From Thermoanaerobaculia bacterium (GTDB lineage Bacteria > Acidobacteriota > Thermoanaerobaculia > Multivoradales > Multivoraceae), in the NCBI GenBank assembly GCA_022822365.1, contig JAJEBV010000016.1, positions 124,001 to 188,000 of the forward strand: DNA of 64,000 bases. Direction: 5' to 3'. Numbering within the stretch: the stretch's first letter is position 1; each line of letters begins with the position of its first letter. A model generated the notes under the pieces. That model was not told where the DNA came from. It saw nothing but the letters and a program-made list of their open reading frames with translations, and did no database searches. Of this stretch, positions 22,850 through 59,826 are shown in pieces. Made by a program: the position numbers and the translations under genes.

Positions 22850-23479
22850 ATGCCGCCCGAACCCGAGACCAAGCGCGCCGTCTCGTTCATCGATGGCCAG
22901 AATCTGTTCCGCCATGCCAAGGACGCGTTCGGCCACTATCACCCCAACTACGATCCGTTGCTGCTGGCGGAGGCAGTGTGCGCACGTCAGGGGTGGTTCA
23001 GCAGGCAGGTTCGCTTCTACACCGGACTTCCCAGCCGCCTGCACGATCCCCGCTGGCACGGCTACTGGACCCGCCGTCTCTTGGCCATGCGGCGGGCAGG
23101 CGTCCACGTAACCTCCCGACCCCTACGCTACCGTCGCGAGACGGTCCAGTTGCCCGACGGCTCTTCCAAGGAGGTCTTCGTTCCTCGCGAGAAGGGAATC
23201 GATCTCCGTCTCGGGCTCGATGTCGTCCGACTGGCGCGTAACGGCGACCTGGACGTCGCCATCGTCTTCAGCCAAGACCAGGATCTTGCCGAGGTCGCAT
23301 CGGAGCTTCGCGACATCGCGCGCTCCACGAACCGCTGGCTGAAGATCGCCAGCGCCTACCCGGGCAGTTCAACGGCTACGTCCCGCAAGGGCATCGACAG
23401 GACGGACTGGATCGTTCTGGATCGCCGCCTCTACGACCGCTGCCTCGACCCGCGGGACTATCGTCCAGCCGATTGGTAG
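22850..23479 (+). CDS. NYN-domain (PIN-like) ribonuclease
   Basis: A 209-residue NYN/LabA-type protein. The acidic active-site set is visible: D15 in VSFIDGQNLF, D118 in KGIDLRLGLDVVRLA, and D143/D145 in FSQDQDLAEV. These proteins are predicted metal-dependent RNases with the PIN/FEN fold. The start at 22850 has no Shine-Dalgarno sequence and sits 7 nt after a T-tract terminator, so expression may depend on readthrough. It is followed 259 bp later by the ATPase/TOPRIM-like pair. A defence or RNA-decay role is plausible and inferred only. Confidence 0.82.
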   Translation: MPPEPETKRAVSFIDGQNLFRHAKDAFGHYHPNYDPLLLAEAVCARQGWFSRQVRFYTGLPSRLHDPRWHGYWTRRLLAMRRAGVHVTSRPLRYRRETVQLPDGSSKEVFVPREKGIDLRLGLDVVRLARNGDLDVAIVFSQDQDLAEVASELRDIARSTNRWLKIASAYPGSSTATSRKGIDRTDWIVLDRRLYDRCLDPRDYRPADW

Positions 23480-23738
23480 TGGCGGGGGCGACGAAGGCCG
23501 CTGGCGGCGGTGGGGAACGCCCGCCCCGCTCGCGGCTATAGTCGTTTCTCTATCGGTTCCGGTTGGCCCGAGGTACCGGGTTCAGCCGAGCCGGGACACT
23601 TTCGCGTCCGCCTTTCGTCCGCACCGTGAGAAGCTCTACCCATCCGCTGTTCGCCGTCCTCTCGCCGGAAAAGGGCGTGCGTGCGGTGGTCGCCGCGGCC
23701 GTTCCGCCAGCCGCCTACCCGCCGTCCGGGGGGCCACG

Positions 23739-25334
23739 ATGACGGCGATTCGCCTGCAGTCGTTCCGGTGTCTTCGCGACACCGGATTCGTCGAGTTGCG
23801 CCCGCTCACCATCCTGGTGGGCCGGAACAGCTCCGGCAAGAGCAGCTTCCTGCGGTTCCTGCCGCTACTCCGTCAGAGCATCGAAGCCCGCACGAGGGGT
23901 CCGATCCAATGGGGCGGCGAGTACGTCGACTTCGGCGGTTTCGAGGAAACGCACTCGACCTTCAGCGACGACGACGAGATCCGTCTGGGCTTCCGAACGA
24001 AGCTCGATCCGGATCCAGGCCCGGGGAGCGGCTTCTTCAACCCTTTTCGAGCGTCCCTCGGCAGGTCCAGTACCTTGGGGTCGATTCCGTGCAGCGTGAC
24101 GTTAGCGATCTGCCCGGATCCCGAAGACACGGTGGTCGCGTGGTTCAGGTCGGTTGAGATGGAGGTGGCGGGCCACGCCGTCAGGATCGACTTCGAGGAT
24201 CCGAACAAGCTGAGCGCCGTCTTCGTCAACGGCAGCGAACCGCTCGAACAGGTCAGGGATCAGTTGCAGTTCGGCCGGGGCAGCCTGCTGCCGACGGTCC
24301 GTCGGTTCGGACCAGGCGGGAAGGCCAGCCAAGGAACCATCTTCGAGTCGTCGCGGGGCTTGGGAAGTGATGGCTTGGCCTCTGGCGAGCTCGTGGATGC
24401 TCTCAGGCCGCTCTGTCACGGCAACACTTCGGAGGAGAGAATCGCCGGAGCGGCGATGGTGATCCCCTTCGGCACTGCCGAGGAGATGCTCGAGTCCCTG
24501 AGAGAGCACCATGCGCCGGGCCACTACTGGCGCGAATCGGTAGAGCGGTTGGACGTCACGGATTCCGCGTTCCTGAAGATCCGGGACCTCGCGGTGGCGA
24601 ATCGGCTCGGCGCCGTCCTCGAATCGCTGGACAGTCGTCTTGAAGCGTTCAGCAAGGGTGTGCGCTACTCGAAGCCCGTGCGGGCGACAGCCCAACGCTA
24701 CTACCGCCGACAGGCCCTGGCTGTCGACGAGGTCGATCCGGAAGGAGGCAACCTGGCCGTGTTTCTGCGAAGCCTGTCGGAGGCGAGCCGCCGGGACTTC
24801 GAGACCTGGACGATCGAAGAGATGGGCTGGAGAATCTCGACTTCTCTCGGGGGCGGGCATATCTCGCTGCACTTGGAAGAGAAGGACGGCCGGAGCCACA
24901 ACCTGGCCGATGTCGGTTTCGGATTCAGCCAGATGCTCCCGGTGCTGGCCCAGCTCTGGTCGATGCGGCCCTCTTCCTACGGGAAGTTCCTCTCATCTTT
25001 TCTGTCGATGTCGGATTCGACCTTCGTGATCGAGCAACCTGAACTGCACCTGCACCCGGCCTTGCAGGCGCGGCTGGCGGACACGATGTGCCGGGCCGTC
25101 TCGTCGCCGCGCCTCGGGGACCTCGGACTGACTCTCGTCGTCGAGACCCACAGCGAGGCGATCGTCAATCGAATCGGCCGGCTGATCGCCGACGGAAAGC
25201 TCGACAGCGACTTGGCGTCGGTCGTGTTGTTCGAGCCGTCGCGCGACGGCAAGGGCTCCTCCGTACGGACCGCGACCTTCGACTCGGACGGCTATCTGCA
25301 GAACTGGCCCTTCGGCTTCTTCGAGCCGGGTTGA
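23739..25334 (+). CDS. SMC/OLD-like AAA ATPase with DUF3696 C-terminus
   Basis: A 531-residue ATPase of the ABC/OLD type. Walker A is VGRNSSGKSSF (about 28-38); Walker B with its D-loop region is FVIEQPELHLHPALQ (about residue 428); the switch is ETHSEAIVNR (about 468). The C-terminal VVLFEPSRDGKGSS and WPFGFFEPG match DUF3696. Such ATPases work with a nuclease partner. The next gene starts 7 bp later and supplies a TOPRIM-like protein, so the pair resembles split OLD-family or PARIS-like defence systems. The 259 bp before the start hold no clear element besides a GGGGGG ribosome-site-like run. Confidence 0.82.
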   Translation: MTAIRLQSFRCLRDTGFVELRPLTILVGRNSSGKSSFLRFLPLLRQSIEARTRGPIQWGGEYVDFGGFEETHSTFSDDDEIRLGFRTKLDPDPGPGSGFFNPFRASLGRSSTLGSIPCSVTLAICPDPEDTVVAWFRSVEMEVAGHAVRIDFEDPNKLSAVFVNGSEPLEQVRDQLQFGRGSLLPTVRRFGPGGKASQGTIFESSRGLGSDGLASGELVDALRPLCHGNTSEERIAGAAMVIPFGTAEEMLESLREHHAPGHYWRESVERLDVTDSAFLKIRDLAVANRLGAVLESLDSRLEAFSKGVRYSKPVRATAQRYYRRQALAVDEVDPEGGNLAVFLRSLSEASRRDFETWTIEEMGWRISTSLGGGHISLHLEEKDGRSHNLADVGFGFSQMLPVLAQLWSMRPSSYGKFLSSFLSMSDSTFVIEQPELHLHPALQARLADTMCRAVSSPRLGDLGLTLVVETHSEAIVNRIGRLIADGKLDSDLASVVLFEPSRDGKGSSVRTATFDSDGYLQNWPFGFFEPG

Positions 25335-25341
25335 AGCGCCC

Positions 25342-26466
25342 TTGCTCATCGAGTTCGCAGACGAGTTGGCCGCGGATCTGGCTGGCGACGAAGTAGACGC
25401 ACTCGAGAATCTGCTGTCGGCCCGGCGCGCGGGGCTGCACCTGCTGACGGCCGGAAGCGACGTGTTCGAGAAGCTCGACGGCATCGCCGGCCTCTCGGCC
25501 CGCGGACGCGGAATTCTCGCGAAGTCGAGAAGAAGGCAGTACGAGAAGGCGGAGCTGCTCAGGAACGTCTCGGTCAGGGTGCTCGTCACCCGCGACACAG
25601 GCCCTTCGTTGGTGCGGAACGGCGACCGGGAAACAGTCGTCGTCCCGCTGCGGCACTTTGTCCGGTACGAGGCGGCGGGCCGGTCCGTGGTGTTGGGAGA
25701 GAGCGAACGGGATGCGGAACTGGCGGTACGGATGGCCCGGTACTTCGCCCATACTCGAGAACTTGATGCAGTTCCCCTTCAGGCTCGTGTGGCGGAGGGT
25801 GGAGGGAACAGGACGAACGGCGCCTTCCGCCGCTATCGGGACGATCCTCGCTTCTGCCTGTGCGTTGTCGACAGCGACCGCGAAGCGCCGAGCGAGGGCG
25901 AAGGGGACACGGCGATTGCGGTCCGGGCCGAGGTGGACGAAGCGAAGCCCTGGGCAGCGGTGAAAGTGCTCGCGTGCCGGGAGACGGAGAACACCCTGCC
26001 CCTCGGGCTCATTGCCAAGACGTTCGGCGACGACCACCAGTATCGCGGGAAGCTCGAGCGCCTGAAGCAGTTCGAGGATGGCGATCCCTTCGGCGCGTAT
26101 CGTGCGCACTGCGACTTCAAGAACGGCACGACGCTGCGGTGGGCCTTCCGCTTGAAGGAGGAAGAGTCCCGGCGCTTCTGGCTGGGGCCCGAGGCGACAG
26201 CGACGCGCACGCCCTCGGTGAAGGCGGAGTGCCTGCGCGAAGAAGCTTGCCCGCGGCCTAAGGAGGGGCCCGAGAAGCAAAACTGCGCCTGCGAGATAGC
26301 CCCGGTGCTGGGCGGCGAGCTGCTGGCGAAGTGCCTCCAGGTTGCCGAGAACACGCCGGATCGGGTACTGCACGGCCTGCTATGCCCGAAGACCCGCCCT
26401 TACTGGCAGACCATCGGGCGGGCCGTGTTCAGTTGGGCCTGCGGCACGAGGGAGACGAGAGTCTGA
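25342..26466 (+). CDS. TOPRIM-like (DUF4435-like) partner of the ATPase, with Cys cluster
   Basis: A 374-residue protein started at TTG 25342, 7 bp after the ATPase stop. I see a TOPRIM-like acidic pattern: E120 with D124 (SVVLGESERDAEL), then D177-S-D179 (CVVDSDRE), then a RETEN segment (E214, E216) like the REIENYL motif of DUF4435 proteins. Residues 297-317 hold four cysteines (C297, C303, C315, C317) that could bind zinc. The N-terminal 90 residues match nothing I know. I read it as the effector or sensor of a two-gene ATPase/nuclease system. The family call is by pattern only. Confidence 0.5.
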   Translation: MLIEFADELAADLAGDEVDALENLLSARRAGLHLLTAGSDVFEKLDGIAGLSARGRGILAKSRRRQYEKAELLRNVSVRVLVTRDTGPSLVRNGDRETVVVPLRHFVRYEAAGRSVVLGESERDAELAVRMARYFAHTRELDAVPLQARVAEGGGNRTNGAFRRYRDDPRFCLCVVDSDREAPSEGEGDTAIAVRAEVDEAKPWAAVKVLACRETENTLPLGLIAKTFGDDHQYRGKLERLKQFEDGDPFGAYRAHCDFKNGTTLRWAFRLKEEESRRFWLGPEATATRTPSVKAECLREEACPRPKEGPEKQNCACEIAPVLGGELLAKCLQVAENTPDRVLHGLLCPKTRPYWQTIGRAVFSWACGTRETRV

Positions 26467-54107: not shown

Positions 54108-54245
54108 CTCTTTGTCGCCCAAGGGCTTTCGGCGCATGCTCGGCGCCGCCCCGGGAACCTCCGATTCTACCCGCCCAAGGTCCCCCAGGCGGCTTCGGGA
54201 CAACGGCAGGGAGCAGCGCGAGACTCCACGACTGCTATGGTCCAG

Positions 54246-56270
<2,025 letters not shown>

Positions 56271-56332: not shown

Positions 56333-57376
56333 ATGTTCGAAGAACTCAGGATCCGGCAGTTTCGGCTCTTCGACGAACTCCACCTCGAATCGCTGGGACG
56401 AATCAACGTCCTGACGGGCCGGAACAACAGCGGCAAGACCACTCTGCTTGAAGCGATCCTCCACTTGTGCGGAGGCGGTCATCAAGGCGGAGTACTGGTC
56501 TCAAACCAGATGCGCGAGATGATCCAGCCCGGTGCGTCCCCCGCTGACTGGGCGACGACCCGATTCGGCCACATCTTCCACAAACTGGACACCAGCAGCA
56601 CGATCAGCGTCGAAGGCCGACATTCGGAACAGGGAACGCTGTCCCTGGAGATCTCTTTTGCCTCAGACGGCCGCATGAAGATCCCCTTGGGCAACGGCCA
56701 GGACGCGGCACCTATCGAGGGACCCGACGCCATTCTCCGGTACGTCTTTCGGCAGTCCGGCCGCGAAGCCGCCGAGACAACTCTCCGATGCACGGCAGAG
56801 GGTTTCGACACCTCGGAACAGCAAGGCCTGCCACCCTTTCCCGTCTCCATCCTGACGATGCGCAACGGCAACGTCCGGGAAGACGCAGATCGGTTCAGTG
56901 CCCTGCGACGAAGAAAGGAGCACGACGTCATACGAGACGCACTCCAGAAGATCGAGCCCCGCCTGACCGACCTCGAAATCAACTCGGGTCGAGGCGAACC
57001 GATGATCTTCGGCGACGTCGGACTACCGGAACTCGTCCCGTTGAACGTGATGGGGGAAGGGATGGTCCGTGTCGCACGACTCGTCCTCTCTATCGCCACC
57101 TCGCCGAAGGGAGTCGTGCTTGTTGACGAGATCGAAAACGGCATCCACCACTCCGCCATGGAGAAGGTCTGGGCCGCCGTCTCCCGGGCTGCCAGCGAGT
57201 ACCAGACACAGGTCTTTGCGACCACCCACAGCCTCGAATGCGTCCATGCAGCGCACCGAGCGATTCCCGAGGGTCTGAGCCTGCATCGGCTGCAGCCCGG
57301 CACCGGCCGAACCTCCGTCGCCTACGGCACGGACGAGATTACGGCGGCCGTGCACCACCACATCGAGGTGAGGTGA
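56333..57376 (+). CDS. AAA_15/AAA_21-type ATPase of a split OLD-like system
   Basis: A 347-residue ATPase from ATG 56333. Walker A is LTGRNNSGKTTLLE (about 27-40), the signature-like segment NVMGEGMVRVARLVL precedes Walker B VVLVDEIENGIHH (about 260-272), and the switch His is in TTHSLEC (about 296). There is no TOPRIM domain in this chain. The next gene, which overlaps by 1 nt (TGATG), supplies one. The pair probably acts as a DNA-sensing nuclease module. The codon use looks less GC-extreme than thiC, by eye. Confidence 0.8.
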   Translation: MFEELRIRQFRLFDELHLESLGRINVLTGRNNSGKTTLLEAILHLCGGGHQGGVLVSNQMREMIQPGASPADWATTRFGHIFHKLDTSSTISVEGRHSEQGTLSLEISFASDGRMKIPLGNGQDAAPIEGPDAILRYVFRQSGREAAETTLRCTAEGFDTSEQQGLPPFPVSILTMRNGNVREDADRFSALRRRKEHDVIRDALQKIEPRLTDLEINSGRGEPMIFGDVGLPELVPLNVMGEGMVRVARLVLSIATSPKGVVLVDEIENGIHHSAMEKVWAAVSRAASEYQTQVFATTHSLECVHAAHRAIPEGLSLHRLQPGTGRTSVAYGTDEITAAVHHHIEVR

Positions 57377-58041
57377 TGCCGTGCGACGACGCCCAGTCAG
57401 GCGTCGACGAACCACCGGAAGAGCGGCCACGCACTACCATTCGCTCCGCGTCGCAACTTCTGGTCGAAGGCAGAGACTACGTCCATTTCGTCTCAGCACT
57501 GACGAAGGAGCACTCCTTCGCGACACCGCAACTGCAGAACTTCGGCGGCGTCAACGAACTCTCGTCCTACTTGACGGCCTTCGTGCGCGCCCCAGGCTTC
57601 GAGAAAGTCGAGCGCCTCGGAGTCCTTCGGGACGCTGAGGGAGATTCCCGGTCGGCCTTCCAGAGCGTTCAGGGCTCCCTTGAGGCGGCAGGCCTCGTCG
57701 TTCCGAAGACACCAGGCCACATTGAGCCCGGCCAACCCTCCGTGGGGGTTCTCATCGTTCCGGCTCACGGTGGCGGCATGCTCGAAACCGTGTTGTGCAC
57801 AACACTCGCAGAAACGCCGATCGTGAATTGCATCGACGAGTTCCTGGAATGCGCGCATGCTGCCGGAGCCGAGATTCGCCGCCGACAGAAGGCCCGATCC
57901 TCCGCCTACCTCGCCACACGCGCTGTTCCCGGCCTTGCGGTGGGAGTCGCAGCGAAGAAGGGCTACTGGAATCTCCGTCACGAAGCGCTGAAGCCGCTGG
58001 TCGACTTCGTTGCCGCCGTCGGAGGGAAGACTGTTCAATGA
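57376..58041 (+). CDS. DUF3226 TOPRIM-fold protein
   Basis: A 221-residue protein from ATG 57376, 1-nt overlap with the ATPase stop. The TOPRIM acidic residues are E31 and D34 (LLVEGRDYVHF) and D86 (LGVLRDAEGD, with D90). VGVLIVPAHGGGMLETVL is the DUF3226 signature with E137. DUF3226 proteins are usually next to AAA_15-type ATPases, as here. A nuclease role against phage or foreign DNA is inferred from the OLD analogy. Confidence 0.78.
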   Translation: MPCDDAQSGVDEPPEERPRTTIRSASQLLVEGRDYVHFVSALTKEHSFATPQLQNFGGVNELSSYLTAFVRAPGFEKVERLGVLRDAEGDSRSAFQSVQGSLEAAGLVVPKTPGHIEPGQPSVGVLIVPAHGGGMLETVLCTTLAETPIVNCIDEFLECAHAAGAEIRRRQKARSSAYLATRAVPGLAVGVAAKKGYWNLRHEALKPLVDFVAAVGGKTVQ

Positions 58042-58081: not shown

Positions 58082-58576
58082 ATGCGCTCCACAACCGTGG
58101 CCGCACTCTATGGCTGCCTCGCTCTAAGCACCGCGCCAGCACTTCCCCAAGAAAGTGCCCCGAGCCAGCAAGACAGTAAATCGGCGGAACTGCAGCAGCT
58201 TCATCAAGCGGCTGAGCGGGGAGACGCGGAGGCCCAAGCACGGCTCGGCTCCATGTACCAATTCGGCGAGGGCGTTCCGCAGAGCCACGCCGATGCCGCC
58301 AAGTGGACACGCCTCGCCGCTAAACAGGGCGACGCCCGTGCACAGTTCAAGCTCGGCGGCATGTACTACAGCGGACAGGGCGTTCCCCAGGACTACGTGA
58401 TGGCCCACATGTGGCTGAATCTGGCGGCTGCGCGATCCTACGAGGGGGCGGCGAAGGAGCGCGACTCCGTGGCTTCGAAGATGACAGCCGAAGCCATCCA
58501 TGAAGCACAGCGGCTCGCGCGGGAGTGGCGGCCCCAAGCAGCGTCGGCCAGCCCCGACGGCGAGCAGCGCCACTAG
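58082..58576 (+). CDS. Exported Sel1-repeat protein
   Basis: A 164-residue protein with a signal-like N-terminus (LYGCLALSTAPALPQ) and two Sel1/TPR-like repeats: AEAQARLGSMYQFGEGVPQSHADAAKW and AQFKLGGMYYSGQGVPQDYVMAHMW, quoted to show the repeat unit. Sel1 proteins act as scaffolds in envelope signalling or host contact; this one is minimal. The 179 bp after it show a TAAGAT box (58740-58745) near the next start but no clear promoter. Confidence 0.82.
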   Translation: MRSTTVAALYGCLALSTAPALPQESAPSQQDSKSAELQQLHQAAERGDAEAQARLGSMYQFGEGVPQSHADAAKWTRLAAKQGDARAQFKLGGMYYSGQGVPQDYVMAHMWLNLAAARSYEGAAKERDSVASKMTAEAIHEAQRLAREWRPQAASASPDGEQRH

Positions 58577-58755
58577 CTTCGACGGCACGGTAGGCCGCAC
58601 GGCACGAATGGCGCCTACCGCCTCCCTGTTGACGACAATGTCGACCAACGCCGGGGACCGCGTAGGCCTCAGGGAGTGAACGTTGGAAGCCGGCGGAAGC
58701 GGACGGGCGGCAGTCTTCCAAGAGGCGAGGAGTCGGGGCTAAGATCGCCCGTCGC

Positions 58756-59826
58756 ATGACAAACACGGATAACCAGAGCCGCCAGGAAAAGTTCTCGGGG
58801 ACCAGGGAGGTCGCGGAGCGCCTCAGCTTCGACCTCGAGCCGCTGCAGCGCTACCTGGAAGAACACGTCGAGGGGTTCTCGGGCGACCTCCGGGTCCAGC
58901 AGTTCAAGGGCGGCCAGTCCTGTCCCACGTACCTGCTCGAAGCCGGGGGCAAGAGCTACGTGCTGCGCCGCAAGCCGCCTGGGAAGCTGCTGCCGTCGGC
59001 GCACGCCGTGGACCGGGAGTACCGGGTGATGACGGCGCTGCGTGACACGAACGTGCCGGTGCCGCGCACCTACTGCCTTTGCACCGACGAGTCGGTCGTC
59101 GGCACGATGTTCTTCGTGATGGAGCACGTCAAGGGCCGGATCCTCTGGGAGGCGCTGCTGCCCGGCATGGAACCCACCGAGCGCTTCGCGATCTACGACG
59201 CGATGAACCGGACGCTCGCCCGCCTGCATGCCGTCGACTACGAGGCCGTGGGACTTGAGACCTACGGCAAGCCGGGCAACTACTTCGCGCGCCAGATCCA
59301 CCGCTGGACCAAGCAGTATCTCGCCTCGGAGACCCGGGACATTCCGGCAATGAACGCGCTGATCGAGTGGCTGCCGGCGAACATTCCGGACGGCGACGAG
59401 ACGACGATCGTCCACGGCGACTTCCGCCTCGACAACATGATCCTGCACCCGGAGCGGGCCGAGGTCATCGCCATCCTCGACTGGGAGCTCGGCACGCTCG
59501 GCCATCCGCTCGCCGACTTCAGCTACCACACGATGCAGTGGGAGATCCCGAAGGACAAGGGTGGGCTCAAGGGCCGCGACCTCGAAGCGCTCGGCATCCC
59601 GGGCCTCGAGCAGTACCGCGACGCCTACTGCCGGCGGACCGGCCGCGACGCCATCGCGCACTGGAACTTCTACCTCGCCTACAACCTCTTCCGCAGCGCC
59701 GGGATCGCCCAGGGAATCGCCGGCCGGGTGCGCGACGGCACCGCGGCCAGCGCCCATGCGAAGGAGGTGGGCGAAGGCGTGCCGCGGACGGCCGGACTGG
59801 CCTGGGAAGTCGCGCAGCGGGCCTGA
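58756..59826 (+). CDS. APH-family phosphotransferase (ACAD11-like)
   Basis: A 356-residue aminoglycoside-phosphotransferase-fold kinase. The ATP-lysine strand is SYVLRRKPPG, the catalytic loop is IVHGDFRLDNMIL and the metal site is AILDWELGTLGHPLAD. It resembles the N-terminal kinase half of ACAD11, which phosphorylates hydroxy fatty acyl-CoAs for degradation. Antibiotic resistance is unlikely to be its role. No acyl-CoA dehydrogenase is adjacent. Confidence 0.85.
   Translation: MTNTDNQSRQEKFSGTREVAERLSFDLEPLQRYLEEHVEGFSGDLRVQQFKGGQSCPTYLLEAGGKSYVLRRKPPGKLLPSAHAVDREYRVMTALRDTNVPVPRTYCLCTDESVVGTMFFVMEHVKGRILWEALLPGMEPTERFAIYDAMNRTLARLHAVDYEAVGLETYGKPGNYFARQIHRWTKQYLASETRDIPAMNALIEWLPANIPDGDETTIVHGDFRLDNMILHPERAEVIAILDWELGTLGHPLADFSYHTMQWEIPKDKGGLKGRDLEALGIPGLEQYRDAYCRRTGRDAIAHWNFYLAYNLFRSAGIAQGIAGRVRDGTAASAHAKEVGEGVPRTAGLAWEVAQRA

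Follow-up and report, generated by a model that had tools for sequence, protein, structure and literature searches.

A DUF3226 TOPRIM protein and its ABC ATPase as a probable abortive-infection module in a variable slot behind thiC

Introduction

What is an ATPase gene, followed at once by a TOPRIM gene, doing behind thiC in a member of the Acidobacteriota? The question is posed by a 64,000-nucleotide stretch of contig JAJEBV010000016.1 (positions 124,001 to 188,000; Thermoanaerobaculia bacterium), referred to as the window herein. An earlier note on this DNA had described the two genes as an ATPase and TOPRIM pair joined by a TGATG overlap. We found both genes intact and overlapping in just this way, at the following positions:

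56333-57376, + strand: OLD/AbiLi-type ABC ATPase of 347 amino acids, the presumed sensor or regulator (Pfam AAA_21/AAA_15; PADLOC AbiLi and PDC-M38A)
57376-58041, + strand: DUF3226 TOPRIM protein of 221 amino acids, the presumed nuclease effector (PF11536; PDC-M38B; predicted TOPRIM fold)

By our analysis, the two genes most likely make up a toxin-antitoxin-like module for abortive infection, similar in kind to AbiL and PARIS and listed by PADLOC as the candidate PDC-M38. Proteins of the DUF3226 family are nameless in annotation and none is described in the literature we searched, but they accompany an ATPase in several bacterial phyla and on small Klebsiella plasmids. If they are indeed ATPase-controlled TOPRIM effectors, this would supply a function both for the DUF3226 Pfam family and for the PDC-M38 candidate.

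Results

Both proteins match models of a candidate defense system

The ATPase is recognized by Pfam AAA_21 (6.8e-24) and AAA_15 (6.8e-16), and its best PADLOC models are AbiLi (PDLC02336, 2e-51) and PDC-M38A (1.2e-48), both matched at full length; the latter covers residues 1-347 over model positions 1-383/383. Its set of ATPase motifs is complete:

56417-56440, + strand: Walker A, GRNNSGKT, residues 29-36 (translation; kept in relatives)
57053-57070, + strand: signature-like GEGMVR, residues 241-246 (alignment of relatives)
57113-57130, + strand: Walker B, VVLVDE, residues 261-266 (alignment of relatives)
57221-57232, + strand: H-loop, TTHS, residues 297-300 (invariant in four relatives)

The predicted structure of the ATPase was poor (predicted local distance difference test, pLDDT, 39.4), and this model was not used.

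The second protein matches DUF3226 (PF11536, 9.8e-26) and PDC-M38B (3.1e-9, 12-206/220). Its predicted structure has a mean pLDDT of 82.6 and a TOPRIM fold, for which the nearest known structure is PH0156 of Pyrococcus (Z score 12.9, root-mean-square deviation 3.3 over 189 residues). PH0156 could also be reached from the TOPRIM protein by sequence (E 7e-4), and a search of PDB sequences with a family-wide DUF3226 alignment returned chance-level matches only. The TOPRIM domains of OLD proteins follow at Z 10.3-10.9 (TsOLD at 10.7), which bears out, on the predicted model, the term OLD-like that the note had used; T7 primase scores 9.0, and AriB of PARIS scores 7.4, a weak value inside the range of chance arrangements.

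To place the catalytic residues, we counted conservation over an alignment of 23 DUF3226 proteins. E31, D86, P129, G134, and E137 are invariant in all 23, and the presumed catalytic positions lie as follows:

57466-57468, + strand: E31 codon, TOPRIM motif I glutamate (23/23 relatives)
57631-57639, + strand: D86-A87-E88 codons, the DxD motif in D-x-E form (D86 in 23/23; position 88 is D, N, or E)
57784-57786, + strand: E137 codon, presumed metal-B glutamate (23/23)
57889-57891, + strand: K172 codon, presumed equivalent of K562, the catalytic Lys in Bp OLD (22/23; PMC6755086)

By alignment, the OLD-type set of motif-I Glu, DxD, metal-B Glu, and catalytic Lys is present, and E31, D86-x-E88, E137, and K172 would correspond to E400, D455/D457, E508, and K562 of Bp OLD.

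The two genes travel as a unit

The two genes make up a single operon unit, and the pair co-occurs across phyla. DUF3226 is present in 18 of the 396 genomes of the phylum. Wherever the upstream gene could be read, in phylum genomes as well as on plasmids, it encodes a P-loop ATPase; conversely, DUF3226 adjoins 9 of the 11 ATPase relatives found at E<=1e-20 in the 396 genomes, the other two being partial matches. A related TOPRIM gene of the genome G019 (L061:9601-10230) is interrupted past its first half.

Plasmid relatives of the TOPRIM protein came from 109 Klebsiella records and 1 Raoultella record, mostly of ∼4 kb among the matches listed. On these ∼4-kb Klebsiella plasmids related pairs make up most of the non-replication content. 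For instance, beyond its pair, a 3843-bp plasmid encodes just three proteins: Rop, one with a helix-turn-helix, and a small hypothetical one. An ABC/DUF3226 pair on one such small Klebsiella/Raoultella plasmid record lies at L077:1725-3472. On a Plesiomonas plasmid, a related pair is placed after phage tail genes. Among phage records and viral contigs we found no relatives of the window proteins, nor any of two further TOPRIM relatives used as queries.

The thiC/APH junction is a variable slot

In the window, the pair stands between two core genes together with one further gene:

54241-54372, + strand: thiamine pyrophosphate (TPP, THI-element) riboswitch 5' of thiC (Rfam RF00059, full-length, 49.5 bits, E 8.8e-8)
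54363-56270, + strand: thiC, a core gene that bounds the slot on the left (NCBIfam ThiC equivalogs, 1061.6 bits)
58082-58576, + strand: Sel1-repeat protein, further slot cargo (Pfam Sel1 1.5e-18)
58756-59826, + strand: APH-family gene, a core gene that bounds the slot on the right (Pfam APH 1.8e-53)

The earlier note had proposed that the pair was inserted as cargo behind a riboswitch-controlled gene and had suggested comparing the thiC 3' flank in related genomes. We therefore searched all 21 genomes of the genus for thiC and read the DNA behind it. The gene was found in 20 of the 21; one genome lacked it and in another the contig ended too early, leaving 19 readable thiC/APH junctions. The junction is empty in 13 of the 19, with APH following thiC directly after about 34-220 nt, and the pair occupies it in two, namely this genome (G000) and G009. 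The remaining four hold other inserts: a trypsin-like/tetratricopeptide-repeat protein gene on the opposite strand (G008 and G013), a long open frame whose first part is trypsin-like (G016), and, at L044:2914-6806 in G011, a Shedu-type nuclease gene, SduA (Pfam 5.3e-10, PADLOC 8.4e-14), with further small genes. The pair is thus not conserved behind thiC, and its description as an inserted cargo pair holds because the junctions of the genus are mostly empty and DUF3226 is so rare in the phylum.

The two genomes that carry the pair fall into separate groups of a three-gene tree, and empty-site genomes are among the closest relatives of both (G001 for G000; G015 and G019 for G009). The GC content at third codon positions (GC3) is 0.71-0.76 in the cargo genes vs 0.91-0.93 in aceE, thiC, APH, and the next gene. 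Taken together, these observations make the pair accessory cargo in a variable slot. No integrase gene was seen among the slot cargo; the slot may be filled by exchange through the flanking genes. The Sel1-repeat gene is not in the G009 slot, and the rest of the genus has only partial matches to it (41-56% identity). APH in the occupied slots of G000, G008, G011, and G013 has a start region (58700-58770 in the window) unlike that at empty sites and a longer N-terminus.

The riboswitch upstream of thiC was seen by the note as well. A search at the default threshold had missed the element and suggested its absence; a looser search recovered the RF00059 match, which is full-length at 49.5 bits, below the family gathering score of 54.3. 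Between the end of thiC (56270) and the ATPase gene there is a gap of 62 nt in which we looked for a promoter or terminator pattern and saw none. Given this gap and the shared strand, the pair is plausibly transcribed from the thiC promoter.

Weighing the abortive-infection reading

In the mechanism that we consider likely, the ABC ATPase would oligomerize and keep the TOPRIM protein inactive. It would also sense a phage signal and, once triggered, release or activate the TOPRIM protein, which would cut nucleic acid (tRNA or DNA) by two-metal catalysis, and this cleavage would stop the infected cell. We infer that the TOPRIM protein is a nuclease, that the ATPase inhibits it, that a phage signal is the trigger, and what the substrate is. 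Precedents exist for such a scheme. AriA holds AriB, a two-metal tRNase, inactive and frees it on sensing phage proteins (PMC12409363); other ATPase/TOPRIM pairs are ATPase-neutralized toxins, and AbiL acts by abortive infection (PMC10440598). Alongside the AriB and AbiL precedents, abortive infection is favored by the AbiLi, PDC-M38A, and PDC-M38B matches, the adjacency of ATPase and DUF3226, the OLD-like TOPRIM fold, the conserved E31, D86, E137, and K172, a slot whose exchangeable cargo includes SduA, and the plasmid and phage-tail contexts.

Several observations weigh against it. The note had pointed to E31, D34, D86, and E137 as acidic residues; all four are present, but D34 is one residue off the canonical second motif-I site, being at +3 after the motif-I Glu. 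The +4 site, E404 in Bp OLD and D or E in 21 of the 23 aligned proteins, is Tyr35 here, so the window TOPRIM could be less active; the G009 TOPRIM carries Asp at this position. Since Bp OLD was not discernibly affected by E404A on its own (PMC6755086), the Tyr35 copy may nonetheless be active. In addition, a PADLOC scan of eight neighbors of related pairs gave a single defense gene, the HmaC-like gene that adjoins the related pair of G014 (L058). Relatives are also found in M. jannaschii and P. horikoshii, and the role of one archaeal OLD protein lies in the cell cycle rather than in defense (PMC12796447). Lastly, the literature searched contained no phage assay of this or any DUF3226 pair and no paper on DUF3226 or PDC-M38.

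The strongest competitor, which we hold possible though clearly less likely, is a DNA-directed module like OLD or Gabija, in which the complex would cut invading or damaged DNA without a host stop by tRNA cleavage. The TOPRIM model is indeed nearer to the OLD domains than to AriB, and K172 is the presumed equivalent of the catalytic lysine in Bp OLD. However, fold similarity does not decide the substrate, the two proteins come, like those of PARIS and AbiL, from two adjoining genes, and no helicase partner gene adjoins the pair. A plain addiction (toxin-antitoxin) module that stabilizes a replicon or the slot, with no role in phage defense, seems to us unlikely. It would fit both the small plasmids with little other cargo and the fact that other ATPase/TOPRIM pairs behave as toxin-antitoxin systems (PMC10440598). 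Against it, a Shedu-type gene is also found in the chromosomal slot, and a defense function has been proven for several members of the ABC-TOPRIM group (PMC10568477, PMC12409363). An OLD-class factor with a housekeeping role in repair or the cell cycle that lies behind thiC by chance, for which archaeal Cran1 is a precedent (PMC12796447), is highly improbable, and we set it aside in view of the empty sites in 13 of 19 same-genus genomes, the deviant GC3, and the patchy occurrence.

An identity breakpoint lies inside the ATPase gene

The abortive-infection reading treats the ATPase as sensor and the TOPRIM protein as effector. Upon change-point analysis of the slot-borne pairs of G000 and G009, we located one break:

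57173, + strand: identity breakpoint vs the G009 pair, inside the ATPase gene (change-point analysis)

DNA identity is 86.7% before 57173 and drops to 57.2% over the remainder of the ATPase gene, with a log-likelihood gain of 39.4 vs a maximum of 6.9 in 300 shuffles. Differences in the 5' part fall mainly on third codon positions (24/15/73), a pattern indicative of purifying selection; those in the 3' part (29/23/34) include many amino-acid changes. The TOPRIM proteins of the two genomes are 42% identical, and the flanks are 92.5% (thiC) and 90% (APH) identical. The simplest reading of these two sequences suggests that the effector half, consisting of the ATPase tail and the TOPRIM protein, was exchanged as a cassette. 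Faster evolution of the same segment under arms-race pressure, with no exchange at all, would account for the many amino-acid changes of the 3' part, and the comparison does rest on two sequences only; we find this rather doubtful since identity falls abruptly, from 90-93% to about 53%, inside one 60-base step. A sensor/effector breakpoint this sharp lends itself to asking which half determines the trigger and which one the target.

In a second ABC/DUF3226 family of the genus (L055:7786-9685), G003 and G004 have flanks that are 97-99% identical and an ATPase middle that is only 65-90% identical. We did not build on this uneven identity as a further case of exchange, the divergent part there being the ATPase middle.

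A speculative picture, which we regard as improbable when taken as a whole, would combine these elements. The thiC/APH junction would be an integrase-free slot for defense cargo, filled through its conserved flanks; the ATPase tail and TOPRIM protein would be swapped together as an effector cassette, with the cut falling between Walker B and the H-loop and the sensor half left in place; and the thiamine-riboswitch transcript would extend into the cargo.

A further ATPase couple in the window

The note had also mentioned a first ATPase/TOPRIM couple 30 kb away. A couple does lie at that distance from the thiC-side pair, at 23739-26466, and matches NsnB/PDC-M55A and PDC-M55B. Its second gene, a TOPRIM gene by the label of the note, matches the candidate model PDC-M55B only, so that this label is at most tentative. 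The couple adjoins an NYN-domain gene matching HEC-09, and the three form a small candidate defense cluster (22850-26466).

Comparison with known systems

OLD and Gabija GajA (classes 1 and 2) share with the window system an ABC ATPase, an OLD-like TOPRIM fold, and matching catalytic residues. Unlike them, the window system is made of two proteins rather than one and has no adjoining GajB helicase. With PARIS (AriA/AriB), the likeness is loose: AriB is among the structural matches of the window TOPRIM at the low Z noted above, whereas the window ATPase matches AriA only in parts and no AriB model appears among the PADLOC matches of the TOPRIM protein.

AbiL of Lactococcus (AbiLi/AbiLii) is a bicistronic system of an ATPase and a TOPRIM-like effector (PMC10440598) whose AbiLi model the window ATPase matches over its full length. 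The partners differ: AbiLii is of the RloB type (PMC10440598) and the window partner is a DUF3226 protein, with no AbiLii model among its PADLOC matches.

The nearest counterpart is PDC-M38, one of the PADLOC candidates that were proposed by guilt-by-embedding and are mostly unvalidated (PMC12988326). The ATPase matches PDC-M38A and the adjacent TOPRIM protein PDC-M38B, in the same gene order, and relatives carried by Klebsiella plasmids, by Chloroflexi, and by genomes of this genus are matched by the models as well. The window TOPRIM is a divergent copy, scoring 34.9 bits vs 235.7 for a Chloroflexi relative and carrying Tyr at motif-I +4. By analogy, the pair may be likened in action to AbiL and PARIS while belonging, by partner tests, to neither; judged by its model matches, it is a divergent member of PDC-M38, a type already catalogued.
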